DNA of 43,230 nt from an uncultured Mycoplasmatota bacterium (GTDB lineage: Bacteria; Bacillota_I; Bacilli_A; RF39; UBA660), in NCBI GenBank assembly GCA_947642475.1, contig CANRSQ010000005.1, forward strand, positions 1 through 43,230, written 5' to 3'. Shown here piece after piece: positions 40,548 through 43,230 of this stretch. The position numbers and the translations under genes were made by a program. The notes under the pieces were generated by a model. The model was not told where the DNA came from and made no database searches. It saw nothing but the letters and a program-made list of their open reading frames with translations. The number at the start of each line of letters is the position of its first letter. Position 1 is the stretch's first letter.

Positions 40548-40576
40548 AAAAACGAACTATATAATTAATTCGTTTT
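40548..40576 (-). terminator. First terminator after the collar-domain gene
   Basis: AACGAA/TTCGTT hairpin ending in T; near copy of 33995-34023. Confidence 0.65.
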
Positions 40577-41220
40577 TAGTATTTTATTATATAATTTACT
40601 ACATTATATGGCTGTAAATTGTTGTGTTTTCCATTTCCCCCAACACTGTTATGTTCATGCGATGCATCTATTGTAAACCCATCATAAGTACCCTGGTTAC
40701 CTGTAGTAGAATAATTGGCCCATTCGGAAGACTTTCTTGCCGAAAAAACTCCTGTGGCGTATACGGCGCCTGATTTATCGGCTGATACGATGTTAGATAC
40801 GTGTCCCGTTAATGTTTTGGTGCCGTGAGTATGGGCTGGAATTTCAGCTGTTGTTAATGTATGCCCTTCTTCGCCTCCGGTTTTTCCTAGAGTATTAAAT
40901 GTTCCGCTATTTTTACCAACAGGAACTTTACCTTGTAAGTTTGGTATATTAAAGGTCGTACTTCCATCTCCAGATCCATATGTTGTTCCTATTACTTTAA
41001 ATAATTCTGAATATGTTGTTCTTGAGACTGCTCTGCCGTCACATAATAAATATCCTTCTGGGGCAGTGGCAGCGGCATATGCTTCAATCATTCCTGGCAA
41101 TGATTTTTGATTGTTATTTACAATTATTTCTGCTTCGGCTTTACTCATATAAAATAGTATAGTAACAGTAAAGATGAATGTAATTAATGCTGTTAAAATT
41201 ATACTTACACTTTTATTCAT
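40576..41220 (-). CDS. Membrane-anchored tail-collar domain protein
   Basis: A 214-residue protein. Residues about 5-25 form an N-terminal membrane anchor or signal (IILTALITFIFTVTILFYM). From about residue 54 it carries a phage tail collar domain (GYLLCDGRAVSRTTYSELFKVIGTTYGSG...FNIPNLQGKVPVG), then a Gly/His-rich C-terminal part (IPAHTHG, HEHNSVG, HNNLQPY) as in microcystin-dependent protein (MdpB) relatives. No phage genes are nearby, so it is likely a cell-surface protein. It is the second gene after the larger paralogue, with GGAGGAAAA upstream. 186 bp are identical to the paralogue. Confidence 0.85.
   Translation of the reverse strand: MNKSVSIILTALITFIFTVTILFYMSKAEAEIIVNNNQKSLPGMIEAYAAATAPEGYLLCDGRAVSRTTYSELFKVIGTTYGSGDGSTTFNIPNLQGKVPVGKNSGTFNTLGKTGGEEGHTLTTAEIPAHTHGTKTLTGHVSNIVSADKSGAVYATGVFSARKSSEWANYSTTGNQGTYDGFTIDASHEHNSVGGNGKHNNLQPYNVVNYIIKY
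40877..41062. repeat. 186-bp direct repeat, copy 1 (collar domain)
   Basis: Identical to 41532-41717 (offset 655) with no differences, including third codon positions; the flanking C-terminal coding parts have diverged. Confidence 0.95.
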
Positions 41221-41230
41221 TTTTCCTCCT

Positions 41231-43006
41231 CTAATATCTGATAATATAATTTATAGTAATATATGGCTGTAGATTATTGTGTTTCTTATTTTCCCCTACA
41301 CTACTATGTTCATGGGTTAAATCAATATAAAATCCATCATAGGTTCCCTGATTACTATCAGTGGAATAAACCAAATATTCATTGGTACTTCTGGCTTTAA
41401 ATATTCCGCTTGTATTTAATATACCTGTACTTAAAGCATGGGAAATATTCGAAACGTGTCCCGTTAATGTTTTGTTGCCGTGAGTGTGGGCTGGAATTTC
41501 AGCTATTGTTAATGTATGTTCCTCTTCGCCGCCGGTTTTTCCTAGAGTATTAAATGTTCCGCTATTTTTACCAACAGGAACTTTACCTTGTAAGTTTGGT
41601 ATATTAAAGGTCGTACTTCCATCTCCAGATCCATATGTTGTTCCTATTACTTTAAATAATTCTGAATATGTTGTTCTTGAGACTGCTCTGCCGTCACATA
41701 ATAAATATCCTTCTGGGACTGCACTACTTGAATGTATTTTTATTGTTCCTGATGGCGTTGGATCAATATTGGTTATAGTATATGATGATGATATTGTATT
41801 TACACTATCACTGGTTTTTGCTAAAACATTTCCATTTGATAAGAATTTTATTTGAAATTCGTCTGACGGGAATACTTTCCATGTTTTTCCTTCATCTATA
41901 CTATATTCGTTTGTGCAATAGGAGCAGTGGGATGTAACTGTTACGATTGCTTCATGATTATATAATTCATTGTCTGGAGTTGCCGTATATGTAGGTGGAG
42001 ACAGTTCATCTGTTTTTATTGATATGGCATTTGTTTCAACTACTTTTCCAGAGTTAGTTATAATTTTAACCTTTATTAAGTATTCTGTATTTTTATTAAG
42101 TTTTGTAAATGTATATATGTTATGGTCACCAACAATCCATTCACCACCATTTATGGAATATTCATATTTACTTATACCGCTTTCTGCGTAAGCGTTTGTT
42201 ACTACAGTGATACTATTGGTAGTCTTTGTAGTAGATAATGTTATTGTAGGTTCTGGTTCTATTTTATATATAGCATATAAAGTTATATTTTCATTTAACA
42301 TATTTAATTCAGTTAATCCTTCAGTCGCATCTTTACTTGTATTCCAACCTATAAATAGATAGCCTTTCTTATCTCCTTTATAATTTAAGTTAACTGATTC
42401 GCCTTCAGCTAAATATTCGTTAAAGTTTGTACAATCTTTTCCGCCGTTTGCCACACAATCATAAGTTACTAGATATTTATCTGTTGGAGTTATTGTTCCT
42501 CCTTCGGCCTGGGTATAATTTAAATCTACACTTATTTCTCCACTGCCTTCTTCTAGTGTTCCTGTGAAGTCTGGATTATATTCTATTTTTACTTTTATTA
42601 TTTGCGATGAGTTTTTAAATAGTTTTTCTCCTTTTGTATATCCTGAAAATGTTATCTTTACAGCTTCGTTTGTTGATTTTATATTTTCTGAAATATTATC
42701 TAATGATGCATCTATTGTTCCATCATTTTGAACTGTAACATCATATTCGATAGAATCTCCTTTTTCATATAGATTAGCTTCCATATAAGCTGTTAGATCT
42801 GTCCATGTTGGAGCTTTTACTTCTTCAGCTCCTCCTGATGTATTTGATTTTGTTACATTGGTTATTTTAATATCCCAATTACTAGAAATACCTGATGTTC
42901 CTTTTATTTTTAGATTTGTTTGAAATGCGGCATATCCTGCCGTCATTAAACATAATAGTCCTAGTAATGAAAATATTATTATTTTGTTTTTTCTTTTTTG
43001 TCTCAT
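41231..43006 (-). CDS. Large mosaic surface protein with collar domain
   Basis: 591 residues from the ATG at 43006 (MRQKRKNKIII; AGGTGA upstream). An N-terminal signal/anchor (IIIFSLLGLLCLMTAGYAAF) leads to a TasA/CalY-like or Ig-type region (about 30-170) and a Listeria-Bacteroides (InlB-type) repeat (YLVTYDCVANGGKDC...YLFIGWNTSKDATEG...ITLYAIYK, about 180-255). Two Fn3-like or Ig-like segments and a C-terminal tail-collar domain identical in part to the downstream paralogue follow. There is no LPXTG motif. The layout suggests an exported adhesin-like protein. It is transcribed from a promoter whose spacer contains 17 C. Confidence 0.85.
   Translation of the reverse strand: MRQKRKNKIIIFSLLGLLCLMTAGYAAFQTNLKIKGTSGISSNWDIKITNVTKSNTSGGAEEVKAPTWTDLTAYMEANLYEKGDSIEYDVTVQNDGTIDASLDNISENIKSTNEAVKITFSGYTKGEKLFKNSSQIIKVKIEYNPDFTGTLEEGSGEISVDLNYTQAEGGTITPTDKYLVTYDCVANGGKDCTNFNEYLAEGESVNLNYKGDKKGYLFIGWNTSKDATEGLTELNMLNENITLYAIYKIEPEPTITLSTTKTTNSITVVTNAYAESGISKYEYSINGGEWIVGDHNIYTFTKLNKNTEYLIKVKIITNSGKVVETNAISIKTDELSPPTYTATPDNELYNHEAIVTVTSHCSYCTNEYSIDEGKTWKVFPSDEFQIKFLSNGNVLAKTSDSVNTISSSYTITNIDPTPSGTIKIHSSSAVPEGYLLCDGRAVSRTTYSELFKVIGTTYGSGDGSTTFNIPNLQGKVPVGKNSGTFNTLGKTGGEEEHTLTIAEIPAHTHGNKTLTGHVSNISHALSTGILNTSGIFKARSTNEYLVYSTDSNQGTYDGFYIDLTHEHSSVGENKKHNNLQPYITINYIIRY
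41532..41717. repeat. 186-bp direct repeat, copy 2 (collar domain)
   Basis: Exact copy of 40877-41062 inside the larger surface-protein gene. Confidence 0.95.
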
Positions 43007-43115
43007 CCAACTCACCTATTTGTATTATTAGTGTTTTTTATTTTCTTATACATATTATAAACCATCGTTATTCATTTAGCAACAATGGCATTCTATTATT
43101 TTTTATTCTATTTCC

Positions 43116-43148
43116 ATTATACCCCCCCCCCCCCCCCCTAAAAGGCAA
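43116..43148 (-). promoter_or_regulatory. Promoter with homopolymeric spacer (possible phase switch)
   Basis: Minus-strand TATAAT (43116-43121) directly follows 17 G (43122-43138 as C on the plus strand). The best -35 is TTGCCT (43143-43148), giving a spacer of 21; removal of four G would give the optimal 17. TTGCC also begins the RNase J promoter -35. Confidence 0.7.
43122..43138. repeat. Homopolymer C17
   Basis: Seventeen consecutive C in a region otherwise very poor in G and C; a hotspot for slipped-strand length change. Confidence 0.95.
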
Positions 43149-43208
43149 GTGTTTTAAATAAGAAAATGGAAAAAACATATTTTGTAGTGGTAAGCTTGTA
43201 GGAATATC

Positions 43209-43230
43209 AAAAAAAGACCATTAGGTCTTT
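43209..43230 (-). terminator. Terminator of a gene beyond the right edge
   Basis: Stem AAAGACC/GGTCTTT (43213-43219 with 43224-43230) with T on the minus strand; the gene it serves is outside the window. Confidence 0.7.

Follow-up and report, generated by a model that had tools for sequence, protein, structure and literature searches.

A run of 17 G residues stands in a promoter upstream of a predicted surface-protein gene, which raises the question of whether the run is a length-variable spacer that could alter expression of that gene. The window (the whole stretch of DNA that was analysed, 43,230 bases with a base composition of 30% GC) is one entire contig, C5, of a 1.1 Mb genome assembled in 73 contigs and 91% complete. 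The source is apparently a gut-dwelling bacterium of the Bacilli, uncultured and host-associated with a small genome, and may belong to the RF39-type group.

Promoter P1 and the G17 tract

All features of the promoter, here termed P1, were read directly on the minus strand. P1 consists of a −35 box TTGCCT (43143–43148), a constant linker TTTA (43139–43142), the G17 tract (43122–43138; C17 on the plus strand), which is the proposed slippage element of the spacer, and a −10 box TATAAT (43116–43121) that adjoins the tract. The spacer is 21 bp long, and the layout is exactly that described by the first-pass annotation. A TTGNNN box occupies the equivalent place in relatives, and in the same genome the linker recurs on contigs C44 (TTTA) and C62 (TTTTA); its sequence and length are species-specific (5–10 nt in other species). 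As in promoters of the porA and vlp type, recognisable boxes flank the homopolymer, the −35 on one side and the −10 on the other (TTGCCT-TTTA-G17-TATAAT).

G17 is the sole G/C run longer than five in the window. The first-pass annotation also held such a run to be improbable by chance, and this was borne out by a first-order Markov model: G/C runs of at least 17 are expected 1.3 × 10^-7 times per window and 3 × 10^-6 times per 1.1 Mb genome, and those of at least 14 are expected 3 × 10^-4 times per genome. The assembled count of 17 is unreliable, because it rests on assembly across a homopolymer and such tracts break contigs; here, 92 bases separate the tract from the contig end.

Upstream of P1, a hairpin resembling an intrinsic terminator (AAAGACC-TAAT-GGTCTTT; 43205–43230, minus strand, stem 43230–43213 followed by TTTT) presumably marks the end of a gene that lies off the contig. 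With this terminator upstream and the ATG 115 nt beyond its end, the tract is outside coding sequence and does not belong to the intragenic frameshift type known from Campylobacter and Bifidobacterium. An inverton at P1 was considered and rejected: in place of conserved flanking inverted repeats only weak AT-rich inverted matches were found, and these were absent from the loci of relatives.

Homopolymer promoters in the same genome

The search for other long G/C runs before surface genes that the first-pass annotation proposed as a check gave two further runs with the same promoter layout. The genome contains only three runs of at least nine G, on contigs C5 (G17), C44 (G14) and C62 (G16), each in the context TTGC.TTTT(T)A-Gn-TATAAT and each less than 100 bases from a contig end. 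On contig C44 both the leader and the P1 region of the window recur, ahead of a gene that is cut off. The C62 tract drives a 242-residue NPXTG sortase-anchored protein unrelated to the window protein.

The window protein has approximately 25 paralogues with a common N-terminus in this genome, and a tract promoter is present in 14 of the 23 for which upstream DNA is available. A second set of approximately 16 such promoters, upstream of these paralogues, carries poly-T in the form ATTACCTTG-T16..T21-GATAAGATG or GATATAGTG, which may be read as a −35 box TTGTTT and a −10 box TAAGAT or TATAGT with a spacer of 15–20. The poly-T spacers (T16–T21) are located at C8:31420, C9:15830, C15:9200, C24:3935, C28:6803, C28:10925, C29:5693, C34:50, C35:942, C39:34, C47:2234, C52:5383, C57:472, C59:1 and C65:4185, where they precede genes of the window protein's family or stand at contig ends. 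A shared box, TATCTAGCAATAATATTACCTTG, was observed upstream of the poly-T promoters. The tract of contig C17 is contracted to T9, and that of C8b is a T8 with the TTG lost; both look like collapsed copies. Loss of mismatch repair was discarded as a cause of instability in this genome. Both MutS1 (848 residues) and MutL are present, so there is no general mismatch-repair loss, a point that was counted against the slippage reading.

Distribution in related genomes

Within the genus, runs of at least nine G occur in 24 of 44 genomes, several of which have 10–33. Related genomes have up to 33 poly-G promoters each, with the maximum in genome G013. In that genome (locus L144 and others; 33 tracts) no MutS_I match was found and MutL is present; incompleteness of the assembly may explain this. 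Across the order, 38 of 288 genomes, from 17 of 102 genera, carry the motif G9-TATAAT; the matches total 209 (summed from the table), and the reversed control gave 0. The motif also occurred in 17 of 296 genomes sampled evenly from the class (control 0) and in 10 of 295 from a phylum-level draw, which returned members of the same class only (control 0). The distribution is patchy yet directional.

A −10 box lies within 3 nt of the tract for 80 of 99 tracts of the genus, compared with a background rate of 0.089. The first ORF after the tract encodes an N-terminal transmembrane segment or signal in 88 of 101 cases, compared with 12 of 39 other window ORFs (p = 2 × 10^-10). Most ORFs downstream of tracts begin M(R/K)n..GYAAF and belong to the family of the window protein. 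Type IV pilin-like genes were also observed behind poly-G promoters, at L181 (G030:C31) and L225 (G177:C72), with starts MKKGFTLAELLG.. and MKNNKAFTLVELLA.., respectively.

A phage origin of the motif was examined and rejected, as 2.9 million viral contigs yielded 13 matches to G10-TATAAT, with a TTGACA-like box at only two. L245, L248 and L252 represent one virus-derived locus on three contigs, with G10, G11 and G13 before TATAAT; this length-variable viral tract is apparently unrelated.

Spacer length and tract length

Linker and tract lengths were compared for 111 tracts from 39 species that have a TTG-type −35 box and a −10 box. Their sum has a median of 19 (interquartile range 18–20), and 94% of the values fall at 17–21. 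Short linkers (4–5 nt) pair with tracts of 12–17, and long linkers (8–10 nt) with tracts of 9–11. At the species level the two lengths are correlated with r = −0.76 (39 species, kinship ignored); for the genus alone, with tracts picked solely by nine G, r = −0.59 (permutation p = 0.0045, kinship ignored). These compensating lengths indicate that selection acts on the distance between the −35 and −10 boxes, as expected of a promoter spacer, and they lend indirect support to a dependence of transcription on tract length. At 19, the modal spacer exceeds the usual optimum by 2 bp and may be read in two ways: either most assembled copies are weak or off, or G-rich DNA shifts the optimum. A candidate cause of the latter is that poly-G DNA has more base pairs per turn.

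Tract lengths were also compared between copies within one assembled genome per species. Promoter copies whose flanks are identical have unequal numbers of G residues in G032 (11 and 12; flanks of 67 + 33 bases), G030 (12 and 13; flanks of 39 + 25 bases) and G013 (17 and 12; flanks of 21 + 25 bases). In G034 two contig ends match except for G15 versus G13, a difference that could be a PCR or assembly effect.

Gene products

The gene downstream of P1 (41231–43006, minus strand) encodes a protein of 591 residues from the ATG, with an N-terminal signal or transmembrane segment (..GYAAF). Its start is likely to be the ATG at 43006 and not the GTG at 43015 called by the tools; the GTG is disfavoured because it lies inside the ribosome-binding site AGGTGAG (43011–43017, minus strand). 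Domain searches gave an all-β Ig-like domain, List_Bact_rpt (PF09479), weak fn3/Big matches, Tail Collar (PF07484) and Gp10_C. There is no cysteine after the signal segment. The model of the N-terminal domain is all-β with a mean pLDDT of 74, and its best PDB matches (FimA variants) had TM scores below 0.5, so that no family was assigned. The target had been described beforehand as exported and adhesin-like. The prediction of a surface product is upheld by the signal or transmembrane segment and the Ig-like, List_Bact_rpt and Collar domains, and in this the gene resembles those of the porA and vlp type; the term adhesin was a guess from the domains.

Ten bases downstream, a second gene (40576–41220, minus strand) encodes another exported Collar/Gp10_C protein and is probably cotranscribed with the first. 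The C-terminal halves (collar ends) of the two proteins are 72% identical, which suggests domain duplication or shuffling. Across 40576–43006 (minus strand), C-termini of the phage Tail Collar and Gp10_C type were observed on an otherwise bacterial surface-protein scaffold.

Leader and second promoter P2

The 115 nt leader of the window gene contains a second promoter-like site, P2 (TTGCTA-17-TATAAT; 43054–43082, minus strand), with its −35 box at 43082–43077, its −10 box at 43059–43054, a fixed spacer and a score of 10/12. In the sister species G035 this place is occupied by TTGCAA-17-TATAAT, and TTGNNN-17-TATAAY lies near this position in the long-leader genes of C47, C59, C17, G034, G025 and G035; in G022 a P2-like site is found slightly further downstream. 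P2 has been conserved in the majority of the long-leader genes in this genus. Individual P2 scores are modest when compared with shuffles (0.007–0.08), and the site was accepted because its position and spacing recur. An Rfam search of the leader gave no real match. A leader hairpin (CCATTGTT..AACGATGG) was rejected as an operator or RNA switch, since unlike the P2 boxes it is not conserved.

P1 and P2 seem separable, because on contigs C15 and C24 the P2 −35 box is gone and T16 and T17 tracts remain, while contig C17 has kept P2 and lost a usable P1 through contraction to T9. The region 43054–43082 may be part of a tandem pair with a variable P1 and a fixed P2. Most tract genes have short leaders, with the start approximately 30 nt after the P1 −10 box and neither P2 nor any other promoter. 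P1 must therefore be their promoter, which makes these genes the best indirect proof of a functional tract promoter.

Alternative explanations

The strongest competitor of the slippage reading, although an unlikely one, is that P2 serves the window gene and that the poly-G promoter is decayed or minor, so that tract length would be nearly irrelevant to this gene. It draws on the high score, optimal spacer and fixed position of P2 in long-leader genes of several species, on the 21 bp spacer of P1 as assembled and on contig C17, where P2 outlived the shrinking of the tract. Against this, both P1 boxes next to the tract are intact, and C44 has a repeat of P1 with its leader; the tracts of C15 and C24 persist beside a P2 that has no −35 box, and most tract genes lack P2 altogether. 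A further account, which we regard as improbable, takes the G run as a structural spacer of functionally fixed length (a G-quadruplex or A-like DNA) that does not switch by slippage. The total spacer is held tightly near 19, a pattern that could arise from stabilizing selection by itself, and quadruplex formation by poly-G has been discussed (PMC9187656). However, poly-T tracts of similar length, which cannot form quadruplexes, serve paralogues in the same genome, and lengths of 9 to 17 are found among near-identical promoters within one species.

The position of the tracts bears on two other accounts. Of 85 tracts, 44 lie less than 200 bases from a contig end, compared with 2.5 expected. This excess fits trouble with G tracts in Illumina sequencing, repeats and length heterogeneity alike, and is not itself evidence of switching. 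It would suit the view that the G runs are artefacts of two-colour poly-G calls or of misassembly at contig ends, as would the known stalling of Illumina chemistry at G tracts (PMC9187656) and some flanks in G022 that are plainly low-quality A/G runs. In that genome (L165–L176), TTGACATA-G10..20 gives way at contig ends to low-complexity A/G runs, apparently where assembly failed after the tract and the loci were lost from annotation. Many tracts nevertheless lie deep in contigs (G025:C6:31376 of 67 kb, G570:C1:199576 and G098:C1:748760), with the linker and TATAAT unchanged on both sides where read, and the motif has one orientation without exception (209 to 0). As an explanation of the existence of the tracts, artefact is largely refuted, and of the accounts considered here we give it the least credence. 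That the tracts chiefly serve recombination or gene conversion between paralogues, and not transcriptional switching, would agree with the nearly identical leaders and N-termini of the paralogues and with the contig breaks at these sites. It is nonetheless very improbable, as the tract sits exactly between promoter boxes with its total length conserved, and the C62 tract serves an unrelated gene.

Discussion

From the sequence comparisons, we judge it probable (approximately 0.78) that G17 is a slippage element in the P1 spacer and belongs to a genome-wide set of homopolymer promoters that vary surface proteins; slippage within clones, its effect on transcription and its purpose are what we infer. 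In this mechanism, G17 would be the part of a σA promoter's spacer that varies. Replication slippage would alter the number of G residues, shifting the −35 box relative to the −10 box and thereby changing the strength of P1. The first-pass annotation proposed a phase-variation switch that turns the gene on or off. Its spacer component is backed by the layout, the length compensation, the enrichment of exported genes and the differences between copies; a strict on/off switch is doubtful for the window gene because P2, whose spacer is fixed at 17 bp, is located downstream of the tract and ahead of the start codon. Slippage at P1 would here probably toggle between high and basal expression, with P2 supplying the basal level, while in the short-leader genes without P2, which are the majority, it would give on/off switching. 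Genome-wide, the poly-G promoters (here also poly-T) would vary exported surface proteins independently and so produce cell-to-cell surface diversity. A wider reading can be offered tentatively: that this small-genome, host-associated lineage of Bacilli has a genome-wide surface phasome of poly-G or poly-T spacers (up to 33 per genome), that many of its long-leader genes pair a variable P1 with a fixed P2 to tune expression between basal and high, and that the optimum of G-rich spacers is near 19 bp as poly-G DNA is underwound.

The mechanism of a homopolymer in a promoter spacer is already known from Neisseria porA and Mycoplasma vlp. The porA promoter reportedly has a poly-G run between its −10 and −35 boxes, and a poly-G run in the spacer of a surface-protein promoter is what it shares with the window lineage. 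In N. meningitidis, promoter spacing at porA sets the level of surface-protein expression (van der Ende, 1995, cited in PMC5084427). Neisseria belongs to an unrelated phylum, whereas genomes of the window lineage contain as many as 33 loci, with longer tracts (9–19) and a modal spacer of 19, and a second promoter that is fixed is often present. The promoter region of Neisseria opc likewise has a poly-C/G run, a poly-cytidine with which expression of the outer membrane protein varies (Sarkari, 1994, cited in PMC5084427); opc is a single gene, whereas in the window lineage the run adjoins the −10 box and is nearly always accompanied by a −35 box. In Mycoplasma hyorhinis every vlp gene has a poly-A tract in its promoter region (Citti & Wise, 1995, cited in PMC10502178), so that both systems comprise a family of surface-protein paralogues, each with its own homopolymer promoter. 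Independent switching of vlp genes gives combinatorial surfaces, a further likeness insofar as the tracts of the window lineage would switch. The window lineage differs in its coding-strand tracts, which are G or T in place of the poly-A of the vlp family proper, in its products, which are not lipobox lipoproteins, in being uncultured and in having MutS and MutL.

G-tracts at surface genes are also found in the gut commensal Bifidobacterium breve, in which slippage controls pilus surface structures (PMC9187656). The characterized tracts of B. breve lie in coding sequence and act by frameshift, whereas the tract here is in a promoter spacer; further G-tracts in promoter spacers are mentioned in the same paper without details. 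Candidatus Mycoplasma girerdii, an uncultured host-associated mollicute, shows repeat-length variation at surface-protein genes in metagenome reads (PMC5476646), mostly in dinucleotide repeats with frameshift effects, unlike the promoter spacers described here. A full-text literature search, with subscription papers outside its coverage, returned no report of the system in this lineage. New with respect to the literature searched are the lineage, the number of loci, the side-by-side poly-G and poly-T sets and the P1/P2 pair.

The linker and tract lengths of 39 species form a natural series and provide a data set on how spacer length and sequence set promoter strength. Loci of this kind would have escaped notice and be under-reported, because assemblies break at the tracts and promoters are passed over by automatic annotation. 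Most of what is known of homopolymer phase variation comes from respiratory and urogenital pathogens and from Campylobacter and Helicobacter. If the present reading is confirmed, a widespread, uncultured, host-associated lineage would vary its surface at a scale like or above that of those pathogens.
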